From positions 1 through 46,952 of the forward strand of contig NZ_QWKI01000096.1 in assembly GCF_009911645.1 (NCBI RefSeq): 46,952 bases of DNA. Direction: 5' to 3'. The translations under genes were made by a program, and so were the position numbers. Origin of the DNA: Pseudoflavonifractor sp. 60 (GTDB lineage Bacteria; Bacillota; Clostridia; Oscillospirales; Oscillospiraceae). The notes below the pieces were generated by a model that saw only the letters and a program-made list of their open reading frames with translations, was not told the DNA's origin and ran no database searches. Below are positions 2,416 through 24,154 of the stretch, in pieces; position 1 is the first letter of the stretch, and every line of letters begins with the position of its first letter.

Positions 2416-2435
2416 AGGCTAATTCTCAAATGCGC

Positions 2436-2484
2436 AAAAGGGGCAGGAAACCACGCATTATTGTGGTTTCCTGCCCCTTTTTCT
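2436..2484 (+). terminator. Strong intrinsic terminator after padR
   Basis: A perfect 19-bp inverted repeat (2436-2454 with 2463-2481), an 8-nt loop and a T run lie 20 nt beyond the padR stop. Its presence inside the apparent open frame that begins at 2430 shows that this ATG is not the start of the following recombinase sequence. Confidence 0.85.
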
Positions 2485-2549
2485 GTTATTTCATAGTGCA
2501 AGTGCAAAATGTCAGCAGCCCGCTTCACAATTTAATTTGTGGTCTTGTC

Positions 2550-3944
2550 CATATCAGTGAAATTTACTTTCCAATGAAGAATGTCCGCTATATCGCGGTC
2601 AATGACTGCGTGGACACCGCCAACAAAAACAACGACATAGCGGCGCTGAAAAATGTTATGAACGAATTTTACAGCCGGGACAATTCCCGCAAAATCCGTT
2701 CGTCCATACGGGCCAGGGCAAAGGCGGGGCTTTATCGCTGTTCCTATGCTCCATTGGGGTATCGCAAGGCCCCGGATAACCACAATAAGCTGATTGTGGA
2801 CGAGGAAACGGCATGGATAATCAAGCGGATATTCGAGTATGCTAACGCTGGCATGGGGTCGCATAAAATCGCGTCTTCCTTGCGGAAAGAGCAAGTCCCC
2901 TGCCCCTCCTGGTGGCAGTACACCCGTGGCGAGAAAGACTATTCCCAGCGGTTTTCCGACCCCACCAATAAATATGAATGGTCGCATACTGTGATTCGGG
3001 GAATCATCGGGAACCCGGTCTATCTCGGCCACACCATCATGTGCAAGCATGAAACGGTGTTCAAGGTGGGGCTTTTGAAGAAAACCCCTGACGCTGACCG
3101 TATCAGGGTAGATAACACCCATAAGCCGTTGGTATCGCAAGAAATGTTCGACAACGCCAACGCCAAAATCCTGAGCAGGAAGCGGGAGGACACCAGCGGG
3201 AATGTGTCTATCTTCTCCGGCCTTATCAAGTGCGGCACCTGCGGCAAAGCTATGTGTCAGCGTTATTGGGGGAGGGACAGGCACCGTATCTTTGTCTGCA
3301 ACACCTACGCAAAGAACACCCAACGCTGTACCGACCACCGCATTTTTTACGACGATCTGTACGATGCGGTTCTGGCCGACATTCAGTACCACGCCCAACT
3401 TGCCTATGAGGACAGGGACAAGGCCGTTGCCCTGGCAATCAGGATGAACGACAAAGCGGAGGGCAGCAGGGCGAAAAGCAGCGAGGGCAAGCTGAAACAG
3501 GCCCGGAAACGCTACGATGAAGTGACCAGGATGTTTGACCGTCTGTATGAGGATTCCCTGTCCGGGCGTATCTCCAACGACAACTTCACCCGGCTGGTGG
3601 ACAAGTATCAGGCGGAGTAAGCCCAGCTTTTGGAGCAGATCGACGCGCTGGAGCGGGCTATGCAGGAGGTCAGGGACACCCGGCAGAATGCCGTACAGTG
3701 GGCCGACCTGATGGCGGGGTACGCCGGTATCCAGGAATTGACCGCCGAAAACCTCAATCTCCTTGTGGAGCGTATTGAGGTTTTTGACCGGGCGGCAACA
3801 GATGACGGAGTGGAGCAGACCATCCGTATCTGTTACCGCTTCGGCGGTTACATAGGAGAGCGGTGTTTCAGGGCAAAGGCTATGAAGCATGGTGGGCACA
3901 GACGGAAAGGGGCGAGCAATGAAAAAGCGTTACTTGTATCTTGA
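2550..3944 (+). pseudogene. Large serine recombinase remnant (TndX-like)
   Basis: From about 2550 the frame reads as the end of a resolvase catalytic domain (YFPMKNVRYIAVND), the arginine-rich helix (SRDNSRKIRSSIRARAKAG) and a Recombinase domain. A Zn ribbon (CGTCGKAMC, then C at the later CNTYA and RCTDHR positions) and a coiled coil follow. The first 90 or so residues, which would hold the catalytic serine, are absent; the frame runs upstream into the padR terminator. A TAA at 3618-3620 interrupts the coiled coil, and recombinase-like sequence continues in the same frame afterwards (EQIDALERAMQEV to the stop at 3944). Both lesions make it non-functional. The order with the two small genes and TnpV downstream is typical of Firmicute ICE modules. 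The left boundary is approximate. Confidence 0.85.
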
Positions 3945-9988: not shown

Positions 9989-10417
9989 ATGTCATACAAT
10001 CATGGCAAGGAAGAACGCAAATGGCAGCGTTGGAAACTGGCTGAAGAAAAGGTACTGCGGGCCTGCGGCATGGATGAAAGCACGATTGAACAGCTCCATC
10101 TTTGGGACAGGGCTATGTTCAATTCAGACAGGCGCTTTTATGAGAAGTTGCAGGACACGGGTACATATCTTGATAGTGTCACCGGGAACGAAACGCCACC
10201 CGAGATTTATACAGTGGAAAATCTGCTGAACGATATTGAAAATGCGGAATTGCTTAAAACCCTGCTGACAGTGGACAAGCTCACCTTGCAAATCTCTGTT
10301 TTAAAAATGAACGGGTATTCTACCAATGAAATAGCTGTACTTGTTCACCTGACCACGGATGCCATTTATAAGCGGATAGCTGTACTGAAAAAGAAATTGA
10401 AGAAATTTCAAAGGTAG
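9989..10417 (+). CDS. Sigma-70 region 4-like ICE regulator
   Basis: A 142-aa soluble protein. The C-terminal third (LTLQISVLKMNGYSTNEIAV, then LVHLTTDAIYKRIAVLKKKL) is an HTH of the sigma-70 region 4 type; the N-terminal two thirds is acidic and tryptophan-containing with no clear domain. Pairs of such proteins are usual on Tn916/Tn1549-like elements, where they are called sigma-like or Orf7/Orf8-like. It follows a leader ORF and an SD-masking hairpin, indicating post-initiation control. Its own terminator at 10445 separates it from the second sigma-like gene. Confidence 0.7.
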   Translation: MSYNHGKEERKWQRWKLAEEKVLRACGMDESTIEQLHLWDRAMFNSDRRFYEKLQDTGTYLDSVTGNETPPEIYTVENLLNDIENAELLKTLLTVDKLTLQISVLKMNGYSTNEIAVLVHLTTDAIYKRIAVLKKKLKKFQR

Positions 10418-10498: not shown

Positions 10499-10975
10499 AT
10501 GACGTTCATGGATAAGGTCTACACGCTTCGGACAGAAGTCCGTGGCGATGGTAAAACGGCATATTTTATTAGCTTTACGGATGGGCAAGGCGAGTTTTAC
10601 AATTTGGAGGTATCGGAAGCGTTCTATATAGAATTTCGGCAGATGGAGCGCAAAAACCGTAACCTCCAGCAATCCGATTGGCGGCACCAGGAAGCGTCAG
10701 ATTTGTGGGATGAAACGCTCTATAAGCGGGCGTTCAGAGTGCCCAAAAGCGTTGAGGAGTTGATCTTTGACGCAGAACAGCGGGAACTAATCAACAAAGC
10801 TATTGCCGCCCTCCCTGAAATCCAGCGACGGCGATTCCTGCTCTACCATGAGTATGACTTCAATTACCGTCAGATTGGAGAGATGGAGCATTGTAGGCCG
10901 CAATCAATCATGCACTCGGTCATTCGGGCCAGGGAGAAGATAAAGGCGGTAATAGAAAAATATCGGGCCGGGTAA
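10499..10975 (+). CDS. Sigma-70 family RNA polymerase sigma factor-like
   Basis: A 158-aa protein whose C-terminal part has a sigma region 4 HTH: INKAIAALPEIQRRRFLLYH, then YDFNYRQIGEMEHC and SIMHSVIRAREKIK. The N-terminal part (about 1-60) is a beta-rich segment seen in ICE sigma-like proteins. TAGGAGG lies 8 nt before the ATG. It probably controls transfer or excision genes of the element. Downstream the ICE-type sequence stops within about 55 nt, where the AT-rich island begins. Confidence 0.78.
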   Translation: MTFMDKVYTLRTEVRGDGKTAYFISFTDGQGEFYNLEVSEAFYIEFRQMERKNRNLQQSDWRHQEASDLWDETLYKRAFRVPKSVEELIFDAEQRELINKAIAALPEIQRRRFLLYHEYDFNYRQIGEMEHCRPQSIMHSVIRAREKIKAVIEKYRAG

Positions 10976-10980
10976 TATTG

Positions 10981-11014
10981 AGATACCCTCATATCTCTGG
11001 ATATGGGGGTATCT
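10981..11014 (+). terminator. Hairpin after the second sigma-like gene
   Basis: AGATACCCTCATATC pairs with GATATGGGGGTATCT (15 bp, one G-T pair, 4-nt loop). It has no strong T run, so its efficiency as a terminator is uncertain. It is the last element feature before the island junction near 11,030. Confidence 0.5.
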
Positions 11015-11030
11015 GCTAAATGTTCTCTAA

Positions 11031-11948
11031 TGGAATTTTACTGATATCAATGTAAAAGAAGTCAGGCGTTTTCAGGTAGGGACATTTGAGTGGTGGTATC
11101 TTTATGAAATCAGCAGCCAGCGTTTTTCTGAGCGAGCCGCCCAATTTTTCTTACAACGGTCAATTTTTCTCAGTGAAACTCCGTTAGATTTTTATCCTAT
11201 TTGGCCTGCCTATGTGGCGGACCCATATTTCATTTACCACGATCAAGAAGAGATATTCTTCTACCTGGCCGGGACTTATGCAGATTTGAAGTCCTATCCT
11301 ATCACATCTGAATATCCCGCACCAAAATCTGAACCTATCGAAGACGGGAGATTAGTCAAAATATTTGCATCTAGCAGAGAACAGTTATTGTCTTTAGGTG
11401 TTTCTGGTGCATTGGGCTTTTCATATTTACTTCAGCAAGACTTGAATATGCGTGGGACGGTTCCCTTAGTAACAGTTAAAGATTTTGAGGAAAACATACT
11501 AGAGCAAGACCTTTACACCAACATTCCCAAAAAGAAAGGTGTTTCTATTTCAGCTCCTTTCGATGGAAAGGTCATCCTTTTACAAAATGGGAAAGTTCAA
11601 AAGGAACTTCTGCTTGCCGGGGAAGGCGCAACGACTGTATATCCCATTTCTCTTGGCATGGAGATAAAAATTTATCAGGGCTGTGATTGCGTTCGCACAG
11701 TTACTTTTCAAAAAGAAACTCTATCTTGTGATAGTCGCATTGCAGATCAAGAGTTGATTGAAAAACTGAGTGCTTGCCATGACACCCCAATTTCCGTTTC
11801 GCATTCATTTGGAGCCATTGCGGAAAAGCTGAGAAACTATCCTAAAACAAAGCATTGGATATATAAAGCAATCCACAAAGGAGCATTGCCTCGCACAGCG
11901 TATAACCTTCTTATTAGATACGCAGAAACGATGGAAAGGAGAAACTGA
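11031..11948 (+). CDS. Druantia-like protein, 5'-truncated (DruB-like?)
   Basis: The frame is open from just after a stop at 11028-11030 and reads as coding from there (EVRRFQVGTFEWWYLYEISS, then SQRFSERAAQFFLQRSIFL). It contains no ATG, and the first usable start is GTG 11214, which has no ribosome site and lies mid-domain. I infer that the 5' end was lost at the island junction. The remaining 305 residues (244 from the GTG) have no recognised motif; the C-terminus is basic (KTKHWIYKAIHKGALPRTAY). AAAGGAG near its end serves the next gene. By position before a coiled-coil protein, a 345-aa protein and a DruE-like helicase it could correspond to DruB of type I Druantia; this rests on synteny and size only. 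Confidence 0.55.
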   Translation, partial: WNFTDINVKEVRRFQVGTFEWWYLYEISSQRFSERAAQFFLQRSIFLSETPLDFYPIWPAYVADPYFIYHDQEEIFFYLAGTYADLKSYPITSEYPAPKSEPIEDGRLVKIFASSREQLLSLGVSGALGFSYLLQQDLNMRGTVPLVTVKDFEENILEQDLYTNIPKKKGVSISAPFDGKVILLQNGKVQKELLLAGEGATTVYPISLGMEIKIYQGCDCVRTVTFQKETLSCDSRIADQELIEKLSACHDTPISVSHSFGAIAEKLRNYPKTKHWIYKAIHKGALPRTAYNLLIRYAETMERRN

Positions 11949-11950
11949 AA

Positions 11951-14010
11951 ATGTTTGCTGACCGTATGGACTTTACATCATATGCTATATTTCTGGCGAA
12001 CTCGATCAAAAGGGGAACCCTTGGTTAAGTAGAATTGCTGATGTAGAAGACGAGAAATTGGTATCACCGCGCAAGTCGGAACGGCCCACAAAGTATTTTG
12101 AAAATCGGGTTCGTATCTTCTGGAACGATGGCCCTACCCAAAAAGGCGAAATCGGCATTTGGGATTGGTTCACTTCTCCCAGCAAAAATGATTCCAGTGT
12201 TGACTTTATTGAATCGTACTACGTTCCAGACAGTTATCCAGTTCGGGTTATCACTATTCCAGAGGCAAAAACCATTGAATATATTCTCGAAAAATTAATG
12301 GCTGGAATTCAAGTAGAATCGCCCTTCAACTGTGACCTGTTTTTTTGCCTCAGGAAAAAAATGGGTTCTTTGAAATATTTTTGTGGGTTGCTATGCACCA
12401 AAAATGACCTGATTTTTTCTGGAAGCTCAGTAACAATCAGGGATAGTATATGTTCCCTTCCTCAGTATACATTTACTGATCAGGATATTTTTATTTGTTC
12501 AACTATCCCCGTTCAGTTCCTAAAGTCTCTTCATGTGGAAAGCCCTGAATGTTATGTATCGATCAATAGTGTTGATGACATAATTCGTTCAATTATTCTA
12601 TCCAAAATCACCTGGCCTACATATAGGGAAACTTTGAACCGTACAAGAAGAGAATGGAAAGATTGTCAACTGCTTTTAGAGCGGGTCTGTTCCGAGTCAA
12701 TATACGAAGAAGTGTCGATAAAAGCAGCATGTTCTTTAGAACAAGCGAAGCAAGCAGTTTCAGAATTCTGTGCACACGCAAATGATTTAATCGACCAAGG
12801 CGATATTGACTTAGAAATACTCTCTCAAATCGTAACATACCACGATGGCCTGCGATCTCAGTGCGAAGAAATTGCCGCTGAACAATGGAAGCAAAGTCAT
12901 CAAATTGAACTTTCATTAGCACAGTCTGAATTGCAGGAAGCTGAAGAAAAGAAATCACAGATTGAGCGAGAATTAAAGAATTTCCAAGACCAGATTACTT
13001 CCGCACAATCGCGGTTGGAAAAATTGAAGTCTGACATTGCTCACTATGAGGCGTTGGGAAATGATACATTGCAGGCCGTACAAAAGAAAATAGCTGATGC
13101 ACAAGAGGATGCGGCAGGTTTTATTGCTGAGCTGTCGATGTTTTTGCCGCAATCCACTGTTGCGGCCTCAACTGTAAGTTCGCTGTGTCATTATAAAATG
13201 GGAACTTCTGTATCTGAAGAAGATGAACCAGAAATTTGTGAGAGTTGGAAGGATGAACTTGCTCTTTTGCAAGGAAATTTAAGTTTCATGTCCTTTGCCT
13301 CTGATGAAAGCAGAGCTTTGAATAAACTGCTTTCCGCATTCCTTTATGCGGCCTATGTTCAAAATATCCCTCTGCTCATAGCGGGGCCTTATGCACATGA
13401 ATTTGCAGATGCGGTTTCGTTATCTGTTGCCGGACGCCATGCCGGTATCTTAGCACTGGATGGTCGATGTGATACAGACATCATCAAACACTTAGAAACC
13501 AGTGATGATACCGTGATCGTTGTCCAAAACGTCTTCGGAAAAGATTGGGATGACAATCTCCTTCAATCGCTGATGCGTTTGAACAAGTTTATTATTTGGA
13601 CACGTCCCTATACAGAAGATTTACTGATTGAGCCGAAAGGACTCTACAATTATGCACTGCCTCTATTCACAGAACACTTTGTTGAAACAAAGCCAACCAA
13701 TCAATTTATCCCTGGTATGCACTCGAAGAAGTTTTTCCAATACAAACTTCAAAAAACTTCCTTCAACAGAACCAAGGTATTGCAGCAACTAGGAGTGAGT
13801 AAGTTAGCAGCAAGCCGCTTGCATATGGTTTTATCTAACGCATCGGTTATGATTGATTTGAGGAATAAAGATTTAGAGTTCCTATTTGCAATACTGCCCT
13901 TTGCTGTTTTAACTGGACAAAAGGATTTCCTTGGAGAAATTCTTGATACCGAGAAGAATATTTCAAATACTGTAAAAGCCGAAATTAAGCATTACTTGGG
14001 TGAAGTTTAA
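11951..14010 (+). CDS. Druantia-like coiled-coil protein (DruC-like), N-terminal frameshift
   Basis: The well-placed start is ATG 11951 (AAAGGAG 9 nt upstream), but its frame ends at 12026-12028. The remaining 650 codons are in another frame, open from 11962 and coding-like before the nominal TTG start at 12058 (YIICYISGELDQKGNPWLSR). One lost base near 11960-11966 would restore MFAD plus this sequence. The protein has a predicted coiled coil (about residues 270-350 of the long frame) and a globular C-terminal half with PYAHEFADAVSLSVAGRHAG. The stop overlaps the next ATG (TAATG). The coiled coil and size suit DruC of type I Druantia; no catalytic motif is recognised. Confidence 0.6.
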
Positions 14011-15047
14011 TGCAGATGAAAGACCACCTTATTGCCACGATTGGACAACAGCTACATATTGCAAAGAGTGACGATGACGCTTGGATTTGTCATGCCATTT
14101 ACAGTTTGGCCGGAAAAATGGCGCTTGCTTCACTATGGGACCATGATGAGAGCAAAAATTTTGTTTCTCCTCAACATTTCAAGCAAAGAGCAGAACAGAT
14201 TTTTACAGCGTATACTACTGTTTACCCGCAAACACTCAGCTTGTTTCCTGCTAATCAAAATGACTTGATAGAAGATATTTACGCTGTTTATTTGCGCACA
14301 GGCCATATTTATCACTCCCCCTACAAGATTTCTCCAGCTTCTTTCATGCAGTCTGTATCTGAAAATGTTAGCTTGTATCGTGGGGTATCCCCAAATGCAA
14401 AATTTTCTATGAGCGGACTGGGATTTTATTCCCTCCACCCCAAAACGGCAAAAGCGGAAAACGCTCTTTCAATGGCCGAAATGTTTGGTTTGCAAACACA
14501 GACATTAAGCGAATATTTGAAAGAATTATTACACGATGATAACTGGACAGAAATCGAGTGGCCTTCAGATGCAGAATTTCTTCGATTAGAGCCGCCTTTT
14601 TCCAAAGGATATTGGCAGGAAACACCCCATAAAGATGGAAGAATTTCTCTGATGAGATATGGAAGTCCCAATAAGCTATATTCTTTCTATCAGTCCAGAC
14701 AAAGCAGAGTATTGCAAAAAAATTTACCAGAATGGCGAATTAGAGATATTCGTTCCAGCAGCCTTAACATCCCCAACGACTTCAGCGAATACCGCCGGAT
14801 TGCTGCAGCTCTTCTTGACTATTATGCAGTGTTACCATCTATCCGCGTGAAGTCAGACGGGATGACTATACAAGTTCGATTAGGCTACCGGCTGCCCCCA
14901 ACAGAAGAGGATTTTTTCAAGCTCTATAGCTGGCCCAACGAATATTATACCTCGTCGCAGGTTTTTTCCAGGAGAATGTCTGCGCCGGTATATCTGGCAT
15001 TTCGGCAACATTTGGAAGCTATCGGATATCAATTTGAGGAGGAATAA
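14010..15047 (+). CDS. Druantia-like protein of 345 aa (DruD-like)
   Basis: An intact 345-aa soluble protein that starts in the stop codon of the preceding gene and ends 5 nt before the helicase gene, whose GAGGAGG ribosome site lies inside this gene's last codons. This is a tight operon. No domain, membrane segment or metal motif is evident; there are aromatic-rich segments such as PYKISPASFMQSVSENVSLY and NEYYTSSQVF. Size and position immediately before the DUF1998-type helicase match DruD of type I Druantia, which is itself uncharacterised. The assignment is by synteny, not by motif. Confidence 0.6.
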   Translation: MQMKDHLIATIGQQLHIAKSDDDAWICHAIYSLAGKMALASLWDHDESKNFVSPQHFKQRAEQIFTAYTTVYPQTLSLFPANQNDLIEDIYAVYLRTGHIYHSPYKISPASFMQSVSENVSLYRGVSPNAKFSMSGLGFYSLHPKTAKAENALSMAEMFGLQTQTLSEYLKELLHDDNWTEIEWPSDAEFLRLEPPFSKGYWQETPHKDGRISLMRYGSPNKLYSFYQSRQSRVLQKNLPEWRIRDIRSSSLNIPNDFSEYRRIAAALLDYYAVLPSIRVKSDGMTIQVRLGYRLPPTEEDFFKLYSWPNEYYTSSQVFSRRMSAPVYLAFRQHLEAIGYQFEEE

Positions 15048-15052
15048 TCAAT

Positions 15053-18000
15053 ATGGCAACTGGTGCAAATTCAGTTCATATTCAGTTGCGAGAGGCGTTA
15101 TCAAATTATATCAAATCACAATATTTCGGAAAGACGCCTATCCTTCTTTCAGCTATGGAAGGACAGCTTGACCAAGAGGGAGTTCTCTACCAGAGACCAT
15201 ATATTGAGTCCTCTCCAGCGTATAAGACTGCCCCCGATGGTATCCAAAACTCCTCCAAATTACCTCAATGGATAAAAGACTATTTTCAGGCACTCTCTGA
15301 AGCTAAACTGGGCGTGTATCCAGCGCCTTTTTGTCATCAGGTGTCCGCACTGGAAGAAGCATATGGTGGAAACGATTTGTTTGTGTCAACTGGCACAGGA
15401 TCAGGCAAAACCGAATGTTTTATGTGGCCGCTGATGGCAAAGCTTGCATCTGAAGCGCGCAATCAGCCAGAAAGCTGGCAGATGCGAGGCGTAAGGGCGA
15501 TTGTTATGTACCCCATGAACGCCCTTGTTTCAGATCAAATCAGCCGTTTGCGCCGTTTGATTGGCGATCCAGAGCATAAATTTATACGTATTTTTAGAAA
15601 CATATGCGGTCAAAATGTAAGGCGTCCACAGTTTGGAATGTACACAGGGAGAACGCCATATGCCGGTAAAGAGCCTAGACGTGACGATGATCGGCAGCTT
15701 GAAGAGAAATATGCCGATATGCTCAATCCAGAAACCGAAGAGAAGCAAGTTTTCCTCCGAAAATTGATTGCAGATGGAAAATTTCCAGCCAAAGAGAATT
15801 ACCCGGCTTTTCTTGAAAAGCTGCATAATAGTAAGCACATTCCAGACGAAGAAGATGCTGAGTTAGTAACACGCTTTGAAATGCAGCAATTTTGTCCGGA
15901 TATCCTAATTACAAACTACTCAATGCTGGAATATATGCTTTTGCGACCCAGAGAAAATAAGATATGGGCGGATACGAAGGATTGGCTCAACGCTGATCCA
16001 GCAAACAAACTTCTATTCATTATTGATGAAGCACATATGTATCGCGGTTCTTCCGGTGGGGAAGTTTCGCTTTTAATTCGCCGGTTGTTTCATCGCCTTG
16101 GCATTGACCGCAATCGTGTGCAATTTATCCTAACTACTGCAAGTATGCCCAACAATGATGAAGCAGATAAACAAGCTGTACATCTATTTGCCAACACGCT
16201 TACTGCTTCTGATGACATTCGTCCGTTTATATACCTGAGAGGTGAGCGCGAGGAAATTGAAACAACGAACACAACTGATATTCCTCTTGCTAAATTTTCT
16301 CAAGCCATGCCTGAGCAGTTTGAAGGTGATGACCCTGCACGATTAAATGCAATCAATGCCTTTTGGGCTGACATATTTGGCAGTGATGCACCATTTTCTT
16401 CCTCAGAAAACGCATATCAATGGCTTTACGACCATCTTGCCGAGTATACTCCTTTTGGCCTGATGTTTCAACAGTGCCGGGGGACCGCTGTATCATTGCA
16501 AGAATTGGCAGAAACTATTTTTCCTGCCGTGGCTTTGGACGATGCACTTCACGCCGTTGAAGTAATGCTGGCGATTGCTCCATTAGCCAGAAGCAGCAAC
16601 GGCAGTGTTCTTTTCCCTGCACGTATGCACATGCTATTTCGAGGGATTAAGGGTGTCTACGCATGTACAAATTCTGATTGTAGCCACTCCCATACAGCCA
16701 ATGGACTGACATTAGGCGAAATTTATTTTTCTGACGGTCGAATGGTATGTTGTGAATGTGGCAGTTCTGTTTATGAATTATATAATGATCGACGTTGTGG
16801 TGCTATTTACTTTAAAGGATATGTTTTAAGTAAGGACTTTGAGCAACATAAACGCACATATTTATGGCACTATTCTGGCCGTGTAAATGATGATGAAGTT
16901 AAGGAAATTCATTTGTTCATTCCATCGGAAAAGGACTCCTTACCCAAGAGCAAAGGTGAAAACAAAATCCTCCCTTGCTACATGGACGTACAAAGTGGAT
17001 TTGTTGATTTTGGAGATGATTCTCTATCTGGAACACCAGGGGTTAGGACACTATATTACTCCTTCCCTGAAAAAAATCTTAAAAAAACAGGAAAGTCCTC
17101 AAGTATTTTGACCTTTTCTACCTGTCCCCATTGTATGTGTGAATTTTCTAAAACTCAATTGACGTCTTTCAGCACTCGTGGCAATCAATCATTCTTCAAT
17201 CTAATTAAGGCACAGTTTGATTCACAACCGGCTGTCCCAGAAAAATCAAACGATCCAGAACGACTGCCCAACGAGGGACGGAAAGTGCTGTTGTTTTCTG
17301 ATAGCCGCCAGCGGGCCGCCAAATTAGCTAGAGATATGTCTGAAGCATCCGATATGACAGCGGCAAGACAGTTAGCGATACTTGCTATTCAGAAGATGGA
17401 GCAGGAACCTACTGAGCAATCACTTAATGCGCTGTATGGATTTTTTGCCATGTCCGCAGCAGAGCATCACGTCCAAATTTTTCACGATCAGCAAAGGACA
17501 AAACTGTTGGAGGATGGTTCAGCTGAACTCAAAAGCTACCAAAGAAGTAAACGTCGAGGCTTTGCTTATTCGCCTAGGACAATGGATAATGCACCCAACC
17601 AGATGAAGGAACAGTTACTGCGATTTTATTGCGGGGGATACAATACACTGATTGACGCTGCGCTTAGTTGGATTGAGCCAATCAACACAAAAAAGTGGGA
17701 GGCTATTGATGCATTAGAGGATGACGGCATAGAAGTAAGCGAAGATGAATTTATGGAAATTTTCAATGCCTGGGTTCTTTCTGCCTGTGATACTTCTGTT
17801 GTTTTAGGCCATACGATTTCTGATGATATCAGATTAAAAGTACGTCCCAATTATGCCGGGTATGGAATGCAGAAGGACTGGAAGTTTTCTACGGTTATAA
17901 AAGATGTCCTGGGGTGGAGTGATAACGATGTAATTGTTCAGAAATGGACTCGCATTTTGCGGGAAACCTTCATGGATGAGGGCCAATCTGCTAACGAGAA

Positions 18001-20305
18001 GTATTATATTGATTTGTCACGAGTTAAGCCGTGCTTTGATTTGAGCCATACGTGGTATCGCTGTGAGCGTTGTTCAGAACTGACCCCATATCTATTGAAA
18101 AGCAGATGTCCCAGCTGCGGACATGAGCATATCCATCCCTTAACACAGGATGAAATTAACGCACTGGACTTTTGGCGCAAACCAATTGATGATGCTCTGC
18201 AAGGCGAACCTATTCGGGTGATTGACACAGAAGAACACACTGCACAGCTATCTCATAAAGATCAGCGCGATGAACTTTGGTCCAAAACTGAGCAATACGA
18301 GCTACGGTTTCAAGATTTTCTCCAAGCTGGTGAAACACCTGTTGATATCTTGAGCAGCACAACTACAATGGAAGTTGGCATTGACATTGGCTCTCTCGTT
18401 GCTGTTGGCCTTCGCAATATTCCTCCCATGAGGGAAAACTACCAGCAGCGTGCTGGCCGCCGTGGTTCAAGTTTATCAACTATTGTTACATTTTGTGAAG
18501 ATGGTCCCCACGACTCGTTGTACTTTTCTAATCCTGTCCCTATGTTTCGCGGCGATCCCCGCAGACCATGGGTGGATATCAATAGCGAGAAAATTGTTCA
18601 AAGACACCTTGGTATGGTTGCAATGCAATCCTACCTTCGGTTAAAATCTTTTAGCCTGGATGCAATCCCGGCAGCAGTGTTTTTGGATGAGCATCTTGCC
18701 CCATTCTTTGAATACTTAAATTCTTTTACCATTGCCAATGATGATATTCTTGTTCCAGCACATGCAACAGCAACTTTGAAAACATATAAACCTGCTCTGC
18801 AAAAAGCGCTTGGAGAATTAAAGAAAAAACGGGATGACCATCCTGAACTTTTCGATGCAGATAACAGCAACAGTTCTGGACAAAAAACACTTTTAGACGC
18901 CCTCTATGAGGAGGGGATTATTCCAACATACTCATTCCCCAAAAATGTTGTAAGTACATACATTTCAGGAACAAACGGAAAGATCAGATATCAAGTCGAA
19001 CGAGGATTGGATGTTGCGATTGGTGAATATGCTCCTGGTCGGTCTATTGTTGTTGATAAGACAACCTATCAGATTGGAGGTCTTTTCTATCCTGGTACGG
19101 AGCGCAGCGAACGGACAGCTGCCTCACCAGCAAGAGCGTTTATTCAAGATGCAAATTATCGAAAAAGCATCCTGGCATGTGATCGATGCGGTTGGTTTGG
19201 ACTGAGTGAAGATAACTATAATTCTTGTCCCTTCTGCGGAAATTCTTCTTTACGTGCTATGCTTCCTATGCTTCGGCCATGGGGGTTTGCGCCTAGGAAT
19301 GCCACATCTATAGAAACTGCTCAATTAGATGAAGAGTATACCGCTGCACAGCAACCGCTTTACTCAACATTACCAGAAGCCGATGATGTATCCAGTGTAG
19401 ATGGATGCGCCAATATACGAATGGCTGTCCGGCCTAACCAGAGGATCATTATGCTCAATAAAGGAATTGGCGGCAAAGGCTTTATGGTATGCTGTGACTG
19501 TGGAGCGGCAATGCCCGGAGATGATGAGAGTGTACTTAAAAATCTAATGCGTCCCTACCGCTCACGCTTCAATAAAGCGCGGTGCAAACATACGGATGCA
19601 CTCAATGTGAATTTAGGATATGATTTTGTAACTGACATGTTGGTCTTGGAATTTCGACTGGATCGCAATCTGGTTGATGTAGATACACAAGGCGGGTCGT
19701 GGATCAATCGTGCAGGGCAGTCTTTGGCTGAAGCCTTACGCTTGTCAGCCTGTCAAGAGATGGATATCGAATTTACAGAGCTAGTCACTGGCTATCGTAT
19801 TCGTGAGAGTGATACCGGCGATTTTATAGATATTTATCTGTATGACAGCCTTTCTAGCGGAGCTGGTTATGCGGTCAGTATGGAGAACTCTATTCCTCAA
19901 CTACTAAAAAAAGCGCGAGAATTATTAACAAATTGCTCTTGTGACAATGCTTGCTATAAATGTCTGAAACACTATCGCAATCAGTATGTTCATAGTGTTT
20001 TGGATAGGAATGCAGCCCTAAGTATATTGGATTGGGGAGAAGAAAATATTCGGACTCAAACCTTTTCTGTCCAGGAGCAAAGCCGATTGATTATGCCTAT
20101 GGCGCAAATCCTTCGTCTATCTGGTATACAATTATTTATGGATAATGATAACATCTGGGTTAAAGGCTCATCAGTAAAAAAGAAACTCAATATCTATCCT
20201 GCGATGTGGGCAAGGCACAAAACTGGCGGAACAATTTTTATAAGTGATATGCAGATCAAATACGCAAAACCGATTGCGCTAAAAATGATTTCTGACTGTC
20301 TGTGA
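15053..20305 (+). CDS. Large DEAH helicase with DUF1998, DruE-like
   Basis: A 1750-aa superfamily 2 helicase. Visible motifs are Walker A STGTGSGKTE (about residue 113), NYSMLEYMLLRP (about 290), and DEAH in FIIDEAHMYRGSSGGE (about 324). The second RecA domain has LLFSDSRQRAAKLARDM (about 750), SSTTTMEVGIDIGSL (about 1105) and QQRAGRRGSS (about 1130). Five or so CxxC-type Zn ribbons lie around 545-575, 690, 1005-1025, 1380-1400 and 1480. The C-terminal cluster CSCDNACYKC (about 1628) is the DUF1998 signature. This order and length fit DruE of Druantia; DISARM DrmA, Dpd helicases and MrfA are shorter or differently arranged. It likely remodels DNA or RNA of incoming phage. The gene is intact although the first two genes of the operon are damaged. 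Confidence 0.8.
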   Translation: MATGANSVHIQLREALSNYIKSQYFGKTPILLSAMEGQLDQEGVLYQRPYIESSPAYKTAPDGIQNSSKLPQWIKDYFQALSEAKLGVYPAPFCHQVSALEEAYGGNDLFVSTGTGSGKTECFMWPLMAKLASEARNQPESWQMRGVRAIVMYPMNALVSDQISRLRRLIGDPEHKFIRIFRNICGQNVRRPQFGMYTGRTPYAGKEPRRDDDRQLEEKYADMLNPETEEKQVFLRKLIADGKFPAKENYPAFLEKLHNSKHIPDEEDAELVTRFEMQQFCPDILITNYSMLEYMLLRPRENKIWADTKDWLNADPANKLLFIIDEAHMYRGSSGGEVSLLIRRLFHRLGIDRNRVQFILTTASMPNNDEADKQAVHLFANTLTASDDIRPFIYLRGEREEIETTNTTDIPLAKFSQAMPEQFEGDDPARLNAINAFWADIFGSDAPFSSSENAYQWLYDHLAEYTPFGLMFQQCRGTAVSLQELAETIFPAVALDDALHAVEVMLAIAPLARSSNGSVLFPARMHMLFRGIKGVYACTNSDCSHSHTANGLTLGEIYFSDGRMVCCECGSSVYELYNDRRCGAIYFKGYVLSKDFEQHKRTYLWHYSGRVNDDEVKEIHLFIPSEKDSLPKSKGENKILPCYMDVQSGFVDFGDDSLSGTPGVRTLYYSFPEKNLKKTGKSSSILTFSTCPHCMCEFSKTQLTSFSTRGNQSFFNLIKAQFDSQPAVPEKSNDPERLPNEGRKVLLFSDSRQRAAKLARDMSEASDMTAARQLAILAIQKMEQEPTEQSLNALYGFFAMSAAEHHVQIFHDQQRTKLLEDGSAELKSYQRSKRRGFAYSPRTMDNAPNQMKEQLLRFYCGGYNTLIDAALSWIEPINTKKWEAIDALEDDGIEVSEDEFMEIFNAWVLSACDTSVVLGHTISDDIRLKVRPNYAGYGMQKDWKFSTVIKDVLGWSDNDVIVQKWTRILRETFMDEGQSANEKYYIDLSRVKPCFDLSHTWYRCERCSELTPYLLKSRCPSCGHEHIHPLTQDEINALDFWRKPIDDALQGEPIRVIDTEEHTAQLSHKDQRDELWSKTEQYELRFQDFLQAGETPVDILSSTTTMEVGIDIGSLVAVGLRNIPPMRENYQQRAGRRGSSLSTIVTFCEDGPHDSLYFSNPVPMFRGDPRRPWVDINSEKIVQRHLGMVAMQSYLRLKSFSLDAIPAAVFLDEHLAPFFEYLNSFTIANDDILVPAHATATLKTYKPALQKALGELKKKRDDHPELFDADNSNSSGQKTLLDALYEEGIIPTYSFPKNVVSTYISGTNGKIRYQVERGLDVAIGEYAPGRSIVVDKTTYQIGGLFYPGTERSERTAASPARAFIQDANYRKSILACDRCGWFGLSEDNYNSCPFCGNSSLRAMLPMLRPWGFAPRNATSIETAQLDEEYTAAQQPLYSTLPEADDVSSVDGCANIRMAVRPNQRIIMLNKGIGGKGFMVCCDCGAAMPGDDESVLKNLMRPYRSRFNKARCKHTDALNVNLGYDFVTDMLVLEFRLDRNLVDVDTQGGSWINRAGQSLAEALRLSACQEMDIEFTELVTGYRIRESDTGDFIDIYLYDSLSSGAGYAVSMENSIPQLLKKARELLTNCSCDNACYKCLKHYRNQYVHSVLDRNAALSILDWGEENIRTQTFSVQEQSRLIMPMAQILRLSGIQLFMDNDNIWVKGSSVKKKLNIYPAMWARHKTGGTIFISDMQIKYAKPIALKMISDCL

Positions 20306-20313
20306 ACAAAACC

Positions 20314-20464
20314 GGCAAGCAGGGCAAAGTGGTACCCACTTTGCAAACTGGCAAGCAGGGCGTGTGTGACCACACGCCTGCTTGCCGCTTGTTGGGGCCA
20401 GCCCCAAACCCCGGAACGCACAATAAATTGTGCGGCTGCGCGTCCCCTTGGCGGGACGCTTTTT
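20314..20464 (+). repeat. Cluster of five palindromes; terminator, possible oriT remnant
   Basis: Five inverted repeats occupy 150 bp: GCAAAGTGG/CCACTTTGC (20324-20344), a 16-bp stem with one bulge (20350-20386), GGGGC/GCCCC (20394-20405), GCACAAT/ATTGTGC (20418-20433) and GCGTCCC/GGGACGC (20440-20459) followed by TTTTT. A 12-bp direct repeat GGCAAGCAGGGC occurs at 20314 and 20350. The last hairpin is a terminator for the helicase operon. The remainder resembles the palindrome-rich DNA near relaxase genes of mobilisable elements, but no relaxase is in the window. Confidence 0.6.
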
Positions 20465-20487
20465 AACAATGAAATTCAAATACAGAG

Positions 20488-20516
20488 TTGACAAAATCCC
20501 TTTTCTGAATTATGAT
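20488..20516 (+). promoter_or_regulatory. Promoter of the Xre-recombinase operon
   Basis: TTGACA (20488-20493), a 17-bp spacer and TATGAT (20511-20516) form a near-consensus sigma-A promoter 30 nt upstream of the Xre start codon. Confidence 0.75.
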
Positions 20517-20546
20517 ATGTTTATCAACTTTAAGGGGAGGGTAAAG

Positions 20547-20900
20547 ATGGTCTTAGTTGGACAGCGGCTTAAATTTTTACGGGAGAAAGCTCATTTGACA
20601 CAGGCAAAAATGGCAGAACTGTTGGGAGCAAGCCAACCTGCAATCAATCGTTATGAGCATGGGCAGACGGCGGCACCATTCTCGGTTTTACGAGGCTACG
20701 CAGATTATTTCGATGTATCGTTGGACTACATTTTCGGGCGGTGCGATGAACCACAGGGTAAGCTATACAAATACAGACCTGATCTTACCAGTGACCCGGA
20801 AATGCAAAAATTTGTGGAGATGTGCTTCGAACCTGGGTCGGCCATGAACGAAAAATTGAAGCAAACAGTCTTTGAAATGCTGGGGGAGGCGAGAGGATGA
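20547..20900 (+). CDS. Xre/Cro family HTH regulator of the element
   Basis: A 117-aa protein with a full HTH_3 domain at residues 5-60 (RLKFLREKAHLTQAKMAELL, GASQPAINRYEHGQ, YFDVSLDYIFGR). A short helical tail (residues 75-117) follows. ATG 20547 follows GGGGAGG by 6 nt; the open frame to 20430 lies over the terminator and promoter and is not coding. The stop overlaps the recombinase start by 4 nt, so it is translationally coupled to it and probably controls excision/integration. Confidence 0.88.
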   Translation: MVLVGQRLKFLREKAHLTQAKMAELLGASQPAINRYEHGQTAAPFSVLRGYADYFDVSLDYIFGRCDEPQGKLYKYRPDLTSDPEMQKFVEMCFEPGSAMNEKLKQTVFEMLGEARG

Positions 20901-22498
20901 AAGCCGTCATTTACGCCCGGTACTCCAGCGACAATCAGCGTGAAGAAAGCATCGAAGGGCAGATCAGAGAGTGTACCGCCTTTGCCGAGAAGAACGGCAT
21001 CACCGTCCTGCGTCATTACATTGACCGGGCTTTCTCCGCCAAGACCGACAACCGCCCGGAGTTTCAGAATATGATAAGGGACAGCGGCAAGCGGCTCTTT
21101 GACATGGTGATTGTCTGGAAACTAGACAGGTTTGCCCGGAACCGCTATGACAGCGCCCGATACAAGGCCACACTGAAAAAGAACGGGGTCAAGGTGGTAT
21201 CCGCCACTGGGGTGATCTCCGATGGAGCCGAGGGCATCATTCTGGAAAGTGTTCTGGAAGGGTATGCCGAATATTACTCTGCTGATCTCTCCGAAAAGGT
21301 AGTCCGGGGCATGACCGAGAATGCTCTGAAATCTAAGTACAACGGCGGGACGTTGCCCATCGGATACATGATTGACAGCGAGCAGTATTTCCAGCTTGAC
21401 CCGCTGACCGCTCCCTTTGTTTTGGAGGCTTTCAAGCAGTACGCTGAGGGTGCGACTATGAAGGAAATTCGGGACTATCTGAACGAGCAGGGTGTGAAGA
21501 ATACAAGGGGCCAGCCGCTGACCTACAACAGCGTCCAGCACCTTCTGAACAACCGCCGTTACATCGGGGAGTATACCTACCGGGACATTGTTGTGCCGGA
21601 TGGCATCCCCGCCATTGTTCCCCAAGACCTCTTTGAGCGAGTGCAGGAGCGTTTGGCAAAGAACAAAAAAGCCCCTGCCCGGCATAAGGCAGAGGAAGAT
21701 TATCTTCTGACAACGAAGCTGTTCTGTGGCTACTGTGGGGCCTACCTCTGCGGCGAAAGCGGCACCAGTCATACCGGGACTACCCACCGCTATTACAAGT
21801 GCGTGTCTGTTAAAAAGAAGCGGACGAACTGCCACAAAAAGTCCGTCAAGAAAGACTGGATCGAGGATTTGGTGGTCAGCGAAACCATGAAGATGGTGAT
21901 GGACGATAGCGCCATCGAAGCCATTGTCGCTATGCTCATGGAATTGCAGGAGCAGGAGAATGTCAATCTGCCACTGTACGAGCAGCAGCTGCGGGAGGCA
22001 GACTAGGGTATCCAGAATTTGCTCAACGCCATCCAACAGGGTATCCTTACCAAGTCCACGAAGGGTCGTCTGGAGGAACTGGAGGCCACGAAGGAAGAAC
22101 TGGAAACAAAGATCGCCTGCGAGAAGCTGGCGAAGCCCAAGGTCAGCGCTGAGTTTATGACCTTCTGGCTTCATCGTTTCCGCAAGCTGGACGCGCGGCA
22201 GAAGTCCCATCGGAAAATGTTGATTGACACGTTCGTCAACGCGATTTTCCTCTACGATGACAAGATGGTGATTACCTTCAACTACAAGGAGGGGACAGAC
22301 ACGATTACATTTGATGACCTCAAATCCTCCCCTGCTGCGGAAAAATCCGGTTCGGATATGGATTGCTTAACTGCACCACTTGGAATGACTGGGTTTCTCA
22401 GTTTTGAGAGGCCCGGTTTTTTCTTTGCTTTCGGCCAGTTCTCTCCTGAGTTCTCTCCTGTTACCATGGGCTGGCTTGAATCCCAGGAGCAATGCTAA
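20897..22498 (+). pseudogene. Large serine recombinase with premature amber codon
   Basis: The N-terminal catalytic domain is intact. AVIYARYSSDNQREESIEGQ has the nucleophilic serine in the YSS motif, followed by ALKKNGVKVVSATGVI-type residues. A Recombinase domain (GTLPIGYMID to RRYIGEYTYRD) and a Zn ribbon (CGYCGAYLC, CVSVKKKRTNC) follow. TAG at 22004-22006 ends the protein at 369 aa inside the coiled coil. Recombinase sequence continues in the same frame (IQNLLNAIQQGILTKSTKGR, then MLIDTFVNAIFLYDDKMVIT) to 22498. A single substitution, perhaps AAG to TAG, explains this. Without the coiled coil and C-terminus the product would be expected to fail in regulated recombination. Its 3' end overlaps the opposite integrase gene. 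Confidence 0.85.
22388..22422 (+). terminator. Hairpin with T run at the element's right end
   Basis: ACTGGGTTTCTCA pairs with TGAGAGGCCCGGT (three G-T pairs, 4-nt loop) and is followed by TTTTTT. It lies within the nominal tail of the recombinase frame, which suggests that the frame beyond about 22380 is not conserved recombinase sequence and that the element end is near here. Confidence 0.55.
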
Positions 22499-23666
22499 TT
22501 GCCTTGTCCATCTTCGCTGCGGATGTGTTTTTTGCGGCCGTATCCAGGTGTGCATAGGTGTTAGCTGTCGTAGAGAAGTTGCTGTGACCCAGCCACTCTT
22601 GAATCTCCTTCATAGATACCCCGTTTTTTAGCAGTAACGAGGCACAAGTGTGGCGAAGATCATGAAAGCGAATGACCCGAAGCCGGTTTTTCTCCAGGAG
22701 CGTCCTAAAATGCTGGGAGACAAAATTGGGCTGGTAGGGAGCACCCAGGTCATTGACGTAGATGTAGTCGCTTTCAATGTAGCAGTTTCCACACAGTTTC
22801 CGGCACTGTTCCTGTCGTTCCTTCATCCGGAGCAACAACTCCCGATACTGGGGAACAAGAGGAAGGGATCGACAGCTGGACACATTCTTTGTCCGGTCCT
22901 TCTGAACAACCCTGGTCTTACCTTTTGAGCGAAACTGGACAACCGTGTGGTCAATCATGATCGTATTCCCCACAAAGTCGATAGCCTGCCAGCGTAGGCC
23001 CATGATCTCGCTGCGGCGCAATCCATAAAACGCTGCCATCAGGATAGGAAACTCTACTGTGTCGCCCTTTGCTACTTGAAAAAGCTGCTCTAATTCAGTA
23101 ACTGAGTAGAATGAGCCGACAAACTTTTGACTTTTGGGCCGCTCCACTTTTTCCATTGGGTTGGAATCAATCAGGTTATGTTTAACAGCATACTTTAATG
23201 CCTTATGAAGATTTGCGTGGTAATGCTGTACTGTACTCCCCTTGATTCCCAGAGTGTCGAAGCAGTATTCGTAGAATCGCTCAATATCCAGCGCGGTCAG
23301 ATTTCCCAATGTCACGCCCATTTTACGGAAATATGGGACGATCCGCTTGGTTACAACACCTTCGTATCCCGCATAAGTAACTTCCTCCACAGAGTTTTTG
23401 ATGATAGACAACCAGTTCAGCATATAGTCAGCAAACAGAATTGTGTTGCTCATTCGGGCAGATTCCAGTTCCGCAGAGCGGATCACAGGCTCTTTGTAAC
23501 TGCAGCGGGTCTCCAGCAGCATATCCTGGGCTCTCTTTTCCTTTTTCTTCCCGACTGCCTGGATACCTGTTGGAAGCCATTTTGATTTTCTGCGTCCCTG
23601 TTCATCCTTTAGGTTGAGTACCATGTAGTAATAGTCTTTTTTGATTTGCAGGTGGCCCGCTACCAT
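22461..23666 (-). CDS. Tyrosine site-specific integrase (Tn916 Int-like)
   Basis: A 401-aa integrase. An N-terminal arm-binding region (about 1-60) and a core-binding SAM-like domain (TILFADYMLNWLSIIKNSVE onwards) precede the catalytic domain. The catalytic residues are Arg in YGLRRSEIMGLRW, a His-Leu-Arg-His box in RFHDLRHTCASLL, His in WLGHSNFSTT and Tyr in NTYAHLD. It mediates integration and excision of an element, together with the excisionase-like gene 128 nt upstream and a sigma-like gene further up. The last residues (GIQASPW) lie in DNA shared with the recombinase tail on the other strand. Confidence 0.93.
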   Translation of the reverse strand: MVAGHLQIKKDYYYMVLNLKDEQGRRKSKWLPTGIQAVGKKKEKRAQDMLLETRCSYKEPVIRSAELESARMSNTILFADYMLNWLSIIKNSVEEVTYAGYEGVVTKRIVPYFRKMGVTLGNLTALDIERFYEYCFDTLGIKGSTVQHYHANLHKALKYAVKHNLIDSNPMEKVERPKSQKFVGSFYSVTELEQLFQVAKGDTVEFPILMAAFYGLRRSEIMGLRWQAIDFVGNTIMIDHTVVQFRSKGKTRVVQKDRTKNVSSCRSLPLVPQYRELLLRMKERQEQCRKLCGNCYIESDYIYVNDLGAPYQPNFVSQHFRTLLEKNRLRVIRFHDLRHTCASLLLKNGVSMKEIQEWLGHSNFSTTANTYAHLDTAAKNTSAAKMDKAISIAPGIQASPW

Positions 23667-23794: not shown

Positions 23795-23992
23795 TTAGCC
23801 AAGCAGATATTCGACAATGCTGACTTTCGGAATCTTGAACGACTTTCCAATCTTTATGTAGCGAATTTCGCCGCTCTGAAGAAGACCATACGCTGTTTTC
23901 ATCCCAATCCCACCGAGCATTTCACACATCTGCTTGACATTGACAACATCGGGATATTCAGAAAACATCCGCTCCTTTGTTTGACTTTTCAC
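23795..23992 (-). CDS. Excisionase-like small HTH protein
   Basis: A 65-aa protein with a MerR/excisionase-type winged helix: VVNVKQMCEMLGGIGMKTAY, then GLLQSGEIRYIKIGKSFKIP and a C-terminal helix. GTG 23992 was chosen because GGGGG lies 6 nt upstream; a nearer ATG (23965) has a ribosome site at only 3 nt, and the frame further upstream runs through a terminator. Its location just before the integrase fits an Xis directing excision. Confidence 0.75.
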   Translation of the reverse strand: MKSQTKERMFSEYPDVVNVKQMCEMLGGIGMKTAYGLLQSGEIRYIKIGKSFKIPKVSIVEYLLG

Positions 23993-24019
23993 AAATATTC
24001 CCCCAAGATACAATAAAGG

Positions 24020-24056
24020 GAAGGCACCCCAGATCGTCTGGAGTGCCTTCTTTTTT
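24020..24056. terminator. Terminator between sigma-like and excisionase genes
   Basis: A 14-bp stem (24020-24033 with 24037-24050; one mismatch) has a TTTTTT run on the plus strand. On the minus strand, the direction of the surrounding genes, the stem is followed by CCTTTATTG. It most likely insulates the sigma-like gene from xis-int. Confidence 0.7.
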
Positions 24057-24154
24057 GGTAGCTTAATAATAGCACAGAATGATTGGACAAAGCAAGTACC
24101 ATCATGCGGACAATTTGCGGACATCGTCAACGCCTGGGTATACAACTGATTACA

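Follow-up and report, generated by a model that had tools for sequence, protein, structure and literature searches.

A damaged, DruA-less operon related to Druantia type I among mobile-element genes of Pseudoflavonifractor sp. 60

Is a Druantia operon that lacks druA a remnant of the complete system, or does it belong to a variant which has no DruA? This question is raised by the window, i.e., the whole stretch of 46,952 nucleotides analyzed here (Pseudoflavonifractor sp. 60, assembly GCF_009911645.1, contig NZ_QWKI01000096.1), in which four co-directional open frames occupy positions 11031–20305 of the + strand. A first-pass annotation had read them as a Druantia druB, druC, druD and druE set on an integrative element and had offered the remnant and the DruA-less variant as alternatives. 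Both proved to hold, in that a type I-related Druantia variant without DruA exists and the operon is a damaged example of it. The island as a whole is very probably a damaged druBCDE of this DruA-less, type I-related form, carried as mobile-element cargo where related elements carry restriction-modification genes.

The last gene of the operon, druE (15053–20305, + strand), encodes a 1750-amino-acid (aa) superfamily 2 (SF2) helicase of the YprA family with an MZB domain, which we take to be the domain formerly named DUF1998; Pfam recovers DEAD and MZB, with Helicase_C just under the cut-off. In PADLOC, the protein matches DruE1 (PDLC00013) with 1724.2 bits, from residue 2 to 1745 and over profile positions 4–1769 of 1776, while the next-best profiles are DruE2 (626.6 bits), DruE4 (567 bits), DpdJ (70.7 bits, partial) and DrmA (28.8 bits). 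Structures have been solved for two large relatives, 9tu7 (2108 aa) and 9wae (1970 aa), and are potential templates for a DruE model. Gene 3 (14010–15047, + strand; 345 aa) matches DruD1 (PDLC00008) at 7.7e-11, keeps 19 of 21 strongly conserved columns and is homologous to the genes at the D position of two close relatives, G022 and G092; BLAST returned no match at E 0.01 between it and the DruD of a second druBCDE copy in the same genome. The profile check that had been proposed thus identified two of the four genes. It also bears on a DISARM, Dpd or MrfA/YprA repair locus, which would share the helicase family, as illustrated by the DpdJ and DrmA scores and by a match of 51.3 bits to the YprA structure, limited to the DEAD region. 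Such a locus is exceedingly improbable, since DruE1 is matched over the whole length, gene 3 is DruD-like and the other genes match no DISARM or Dpd profile: the weak DrmA score is accompanied by no match to DrmB, DrmC or the DISARM methyltransferase among the four genes, DpdJ is the sole Dpd match, and the profile scores and the neighbors both set DruE apart from the MrfA/YprA repair helicase.

The order B-C-D-E is that of Druantia type I, and all four frames were found on the + strand as described. Their reported overlap is limited to a single base shared by genes 2 and 3. The island was also said to be richer in A and T than both flanks, and its guanine plus cytosine (GC) content is indeed 0.397–0.460 per 1-kb segment between 11 and 21 kb, against 0.467–0.631 in the flanks, with the exception of two flank segments (23–24 and 25–26 kb) at 0.447. 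The claimed likeness to DruB-C-D-E in order and size stands for order and fails in size for gene 1 (11031–11948, + strand), an open frame of 305 codons that aligns with residues 220–516 of a 519-residue DruB (L036).

To place the operon among its relatives, 84,980 species genomes were scanned with an alignment of three DruE proteins and the best 80 of 537 candidate loci were retained, a selection which favors proteins resembling the three queries. At 58 of these 80 loci, B, C, D and E follow one another in this order by BLAST homology. Among the remaining 22, 13 are short of at least one gene, mostly at a contig end or through cut genes; six (L096, L098, L099, L103, L105 and L115) have at the DruC position an open reading frame of fitting size without BLAST match; and L108, L109 and L111, which form one DruE branch, have unmatched frames of ∼500–520 aa each at both the B and C positions. 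Split genes occur in three relatives (DruB in L039, DruC in L048 and DruD in L102), and full-length proteins measure 452–585 aa for DruB, mostly 650–1000 aa for DruC and 322–375 aa for DruD.

The hosts of the best 80 loci are mostly Bacillota, along with some Pseudomonadota, Planctomycetota and Bacteroidota and one record each from Mycoplasmatota, Actinomycetota and an archaeon. Among them, the nearest DruE proteins (69–74% identity) include those of Candidatus Galloscillospira, Pseudoflavonifractor phocaeensis and Eubacterium pyruvativorans. In a set of 99 close relatives, proteins sharing at least 42% identity with the window DruE over long stretches occur twice in the genome under study and also in G022, in G092 and, as a fragment, in G045. 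A sample of 398 genomes of the phylum yielded DruE1 matches above 1700 bits in three, namely the genome under study, G426 and G450. DruBCDE without DruA is widespread yet rare per genome. In viral sequences, six exact peptide patterns from the window DruE found no close relative in IMG/VR, where distant relatives were not sought, and a phage collection contains two matching records: an unannotated 11.8-kb faecal 'Bacteriophage sp.' with 59% identity over 68% of DruE, and a second one at 24% identity.

The DruA family corresponds to PF14236 (DUF4338), and its absence from the four genes, as had been noted, extends well beyond the window. No PF14236 match was found in the genomes behind 66 of the 80 loci, several of which are incomplete (L101 and thirteen other loci were left out of this search), nor in G022, G045, G092 and G450; in controls, the profile matched 3 of 3 DruA-bearing plasmids and none of 14 control genomes. 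The survey of helicase relatives that had been suggested returned the conserved neighbors and no DruA in these genomes. A different arrangement is found in G426, where DruA (C3:21921–22805, L120) lies ∼1.4 kb after druE on the opposite strand with a 391-aa gene in between. In a FastTree phylogeny of 86 DruE proteins, the five DruA-adjacent ones (E. coli, P. putida, Nitrosococcus, Haloplanus and G426) fall outside the 81 others, the separating branch having a support of 100. This tree was built with a quick method, contains several rows with long branches and has a single archaeal row as its root; it therefore does not separate gain of DruA from loss.

These data bear on the proposal that the operon is what is left of a canonical DruABCDE, whose druA would have disappeared at the left junction rather than being ancestrally absent. 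A stretch of 5′ sequence was indeed removed at that junction, so that the window taken alone is compatible with a lost druA, and the tree cannot separate loss from absence. Yet the seven nearest relatives (L036, L037, L038, L039, L064, L065 and L083) have no PF14236 in their genomes and the 81-row group stands apart from the DruA-adjacent DruE, making this origin very unlikely. Collectively, the gene content of the relatives points to a DruA-less form of type I-related Druantia, of which the window holds a copy. This copy was not filed as a type I member because DruA and a full-length DruB, both defining features, are lacking. The PADLOC set itself already fits one DruA-less member, because the DruB of G450 matches PDLC00003 end to end in a genome without PF14236. 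More broadly, the DruB proteins of four of seven DruA-less relatives scanned match DruB1 (L036, 0.0085; L084, 1.2e-9; L115, 1e-5; G450, 5.2e-246).

How much of this DruA-less operon is left in the window? The most extensive loss concerns druB. Gene 1, homologous by BLAST to the genes at the DruB position of G022 and G092 and without BLAST match at E 0.01 to the DruB of the second copy, is a 3′ remnant lacking about 219 N-terminal residues. Its frame has no start codon at 11031, the earliest in-frame start being GTG 11214, and the first druB-homologous codon, at 11040, corresponds to residue 220 of the L036 DruB. The break coincides with the left junction of the island (11029–11044), where backbone homology ends and druB homology begins: backbone matches from other elements (among them G053, 93%; G003, 85%; and G030, 84%) stop at 11029, 11039 or 11044. 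A 15-bp hairpin (10981–11014, + strand; z −5.85) is located just before this junction, near the end of the backbone part.

The missing part of DruB includes its most conserved residues. In 65 full-length DruB proteins (from 60 of the 80 loci, L031, L032, L034, E. coli and P. putida), C40, C43, F59, H61 and C70 are 100% conserved, and the same residues are invariant in a separate 46-row alignment. C40, C43, H61 and C70 are predicted to form a zinc site, which the window copy has lost. In the structure predicted for an intact DruB relative, the zinc residues sit in an N-terminal part, after which come beta-rich domains; compared with known structures, this model gave immunoglobulin (Ig)-like hits whose TM-scores were low (best E 7.7e-5; nine hits at E ≤0.001). 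The DruB N-terminus resembles CoiA_N, below the cut-off in L036 and L084 and above it in P. putida. A nuclease function of DruB was considered and rejected, as no acidic or lysine nuclease signature is present in columns conserved in more than 70% of the 65 proteins and the matches of the model are Ig-like.

The second lesion affects the start of druC (11962–14010, + strand). Its frame is open from 11962 and contains no ATG, GTG or TTG before TTG 12058, 32 codons in, so that the 650 aa attributed to gene 2 are obtained only when counting from this TTG. The gene is homologous by BLAST to the DruC-position genes of G022, G092 and the second copy, and the protein keeps 13 of 14 strongly conserved columns (counted on 59 locus rows, including L063, an open reading frame located after DruE rather than at the DruC position). 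It has no match to PADLOC DruC1, a profile reached by L087 alone (4.3e-10) among five relatives' DruC scanned. Its predicted structure (predicted TM-score 0.45) comprises a beta-rich part, a long coiled-coil helix and a weakly AAA-like C-terminal domain lacking GK[S/T]; the weak Foldseek matches include AAA+ proteins such as FlaI, Lon, MuB and BrxL among other folds. An active NTPase is not supported, as none of 13 displayed sequences has GK[S/T] at the P-loop-like stretch and the AAA+ matches are non-significant. Matches of DruC to the PADLOC profiles JetC, LmuB and PbeC, and to solved coiled-coil proteins, were likewise set aside as coiled-coil similarity without meaning.

The third lesion lies in druE at motif VI (18443–18463, + strand), the motif that generally links ATP hydrolysis to movement in SF2 helicases. 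The window protein is three residues shorter here than every relative covering the region, through an in-frame deletion within a short repeat, and the motif is intact in 82 of the 83 other DruE proteins examined, L079 being cut before it. Of 341 columns conserved at 95% or more, the window DruE keeps 336 (rank 58 of 81), and three of the five losses are the motif VI deletion, apart from which the protein is unremarkable. Because druB lacks its zinc module and DruE part of motif VI, the operon is probably non-functional and most likely no longer defends its host. The damage looks recent because DruC, DruD and the remainder of DruE are well kept.

It could be argued that the operon works in a shortened version, with a short DruB, an alternative druC start and an unusual motif VI, and that it still defends the cell or has turned to regulation. 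The open frames of druC, druD and druE, with most of their conserved columns, and the preservation of the reading frame by the motif VI deletion would fit this possibility. What makes it unlikely is that the zinc residues are present in all 65 full-length DruB and motif VI in all 82 DruE covering it, that the druB break coincides with the backbone junction and that the neighboring recombinase is interrupted too.

The setting of the damaged DruA-less operon agrees with mobile-element cargo. On its left, a sigma-like or helix-turn-helix gene (9989–10417, + strand; weak Sigma70_ECF match, 0.019, below the cut-off) with homologous DNA in G053 (93%) and G003 (85%) is followed by a Sigma70 region 4 gene (10499–10975, + strand; PF08281, 2.5e-7) conserved in other elements. 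The G053 left-flank contig continues into genes that look VirB6-, PrgI- and VirB4-like. On the right, other elements become homologous again immediately behind the druE stop (20305–20307). An imperfect inverted repeat starting at this junction (20307–20400) was noticed by eye, and short parts of it recur in several related genomes. There follow an XRE-family regulator (20430–20900, + strand; HTH_3, 2.9e-12), a large serine recombinase (20897–22006, + strand), a tyrosine integrase (22461–23666, − strand; Phage_integrase, 2.2e-24), which is a candidate member of the element, and an excisionase-like protein (23795–24145, − strand; HTH_17, 2.5e-8). Remains of a serine recombinase, with Recombinase and zinc-ribbon domains and no match to the resolvase N-terminal domain, were also seen at 2430–3944.

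The recombinase frame carries an in-frame stop at 22004–22006 and runs on to 22498, and open copies of 498 and 527 aa exist in contig C16 of the same genome and in G053, respectively. A different species of the genus has the same stop in a fragment (G045:C97) that is 98.9% identical to the window over 18759–22652 and thus shares sequence with it into the tyrosine integrase. This second genome bears on the suggestion that faults of sequencing or assembly account for the druC-start and motif VI breaks, in which case the damage to the operon would be smaller than it seems. The assembly is split into 394 contigs, the motif VI deletion falls within a short repeat and neither lesion is confirmed by a second genome: when the motif VI region was compared with 64 genomes of the genus, the only matches were G022 and the genome's own second copy, at 67–69% DNA identity, G045 matching outside the region. 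On the other hand, the recombinase stop is found in both genomes and the druB loss amounts to hundreds of bases at a junction where the backbone homology of other elements ends. Errors at the two smaller lesions are accordingly given little credence.

The same right flank adjoins other DNA-targeting genes elsewhere (L147, L148 and L149). In G053 these form a type I restriction-modification operon that includes an IrrE-like gene, in contig C16 of the own genome there is an MmeI-type restriction-modification gene, and in G589 a fused N6-methylase/specificity protein lies ∼2 kb further on. On these three other examples, we regard the island as cargo at a hot spot of mobile elements for defenses that target DNA. 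The initial reading as Druantia B-C-D-E on an integrative element is thus upheld by the DruE1 and DruD1 matches, the homology of the relatives and the position between mobile-element genes. The genome also contains a second, apparently intact druBCDE (contig C189, L031:7394–18018, G000:C189) with full-length DruB and intact motif VI. This copy adjoins a relaxase gene, and its DruE, 42% identical to that of the window, belongs to another DruE branch.

Several observations weigh against a damaged DruA-less Druantia carried as mobile-element cargo: 1) genes 1 and 2 of the window match no Dru profile in PADLOC, nor do the DruB proteins of the second copy, G022 and L111; 2) Foldseek yields no DruC match at E ≤0.001, the best one (8.2e-3) being non-significant; 3) on another contig (L152:3257–6844, G000:C49), the own genome encodes a protein of 1195 aa in which a DruA domain precedes an SspF/DndF-like region, its gene being located outside any Dru operon seen; 4) the druB, druC-start and motif VI lesions are known from one assembly, the G045 fragment starting only at 18759; 5) no element was seen in which the two flanks meet without cargo, and the left and right flanks of G053 lie on different contigs; and 6) some function of the window operon could persist, for example through alternative starts, as the frames are otherwise open and conserved.

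If DruA is missing, what accompanies DruBCDE instead? DruB homologs were located at 68 places (64 of the 80 loci, L031, L032, L034 and the window), 56 of which have at least 2.5 kb of upstream sequence. A cytosine (C5) methyltransferase lies 0–2 kb before druB at 12 of these 56 places (L086, L088, L091, L092, L094, L096, L097, L098, L099, L101, L102 and L103), its domain being identified by Pfam in 11 and by BLAST in L101. All 12 loci belong to a single 26-row DruE clade, of which 22 members have enough upstream sequence, and none was found among the 34 places outside it. In 10 of the 12 (none in L091 and L094), a restriction gene is located 16–51 bases before druB, and L090 and L105, both cut by contig ends, have one too. 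The 12 restriction genes were all confirmed by Pfam, five being of EcoO109I type and seven of Eco47II type, so that two restriction enzyme families alternate at the same place before druB. The one methyltransferase of the clade that was scanned with PADLOC matches DruM2 at 1.5e-90. The window's own DruE clade has no such arrangement. Restriction-modification genes before druB in one clade provide a testable link between Druantia and DNA modification.

For the intact form, a mechanism can be proposed in which DruE, as a YprA/MrfA-family SF2 helicase, would act on phage DNA intermediates and disrupt replication by driving strand separation or fork disruption. DruB, DruC and DruD may constitute a recognition and loading complex for DruE on foreign DNA, to which DruB would contribute its putative zinc site and Ig-like domains and DruC its coiled coil and an AAA-like domain without P-loop signature. 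In the absence of DruA, cleavage would fall to nucleases of the host, with the linked restriction enzyme as the alternative in one clade. It is conceivable, though we advance it tentatively, that DruBCDE represents a self-sufficient Druantia class, mainly of Bacillota, in which DruA is optional and one branch has a methyltransferase and an exchangeable restriction enzyme in DruA's place. If so, helicase-driven disruption would be the mode of action of this class, with a zinc/Ig-like DruB and a pseudo-AAA coiled-coil DruC as its means, and the methyltransferase/restriction branch would be a hybrid of type I, type II and restriction-modification, with these genes at the place DruA has in Pseudomonadota. 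The widespread DruA-less form points to a smaller DruBCDE core, and it suggests that a definition built on DruA would overlook or misname systems of this kind. The damaged window copy is of lesser weight and illustrates how defense cargo turns over on mobile elements, its genome having retained a second, apparently intact operon.

The name DruBCDE was not found in the literature searched, nor is a DruA-less type I named in the titles and abstract openings covered, a set that excludes subscription journals and, with them, the original 2018 description. Type I Druantia has been described as comprising five genes (PMC13316683), and a survey of Ralstonia reports druBCD genes without family designation (PMC7251935). 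A review, citing a preprint, mentions a phage protein that promotes phage DNA methylation and thereby evades type I Druantia (PMC12904381).

With the other systems, the DruA-less form shares features one at a time. ARMADA, DISARM and Dpd have the helicase family and a DUF1998-type module in common with it (PMC12458937, excerpt), while their partner genes differ and DISARM and Dpd profiles score low on DruE; no ARMADA-named profile was among the PADLOC matches of the window genes. Druantia type III (DruH-DruE) likewise possesses a YprA-family DruE with an MrfA-like zinc module, and its DruE is portrayed as a helicase-nuclease acting on single-stranded DNA-containing intermediates with DruH as the likely sensor (PMC13192584, excerpt), whereas the window has no DruH. 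Type II and the type IV CoCoNuT (DruM-F-G-E) recall the methyltransferase before druB in one DruA-less clade, but the four window genes match neither DruM, DruF nor DruG, and DruE scores 626.6 bits with DruE2 against 1724.2 with DruE1. In PADLOC, type IV denotes DruE and DruF with DruL, a composition different from DruBCDE (PMC8565338, excerpt). From Druantia type I, as represented by E. coli druABCDE (L119) and P. putida pKF715A (L116) and for which a predicted inactivated C-terminal Vsr domain, rather than phospholipase D (PLD) nucleases, is reported in DruE (PMC12458937, excerpt), the window differs by the lack of druA, by far-diverged DruB, DruC and DruD and by the damage to its copy. Conversely, it has in common with type I the DruE1-class helicase, DruD, the B-C-D-E order, a coiled-coil DruC and, in its relatives, the predicted N-terminal zinc site of DruB.

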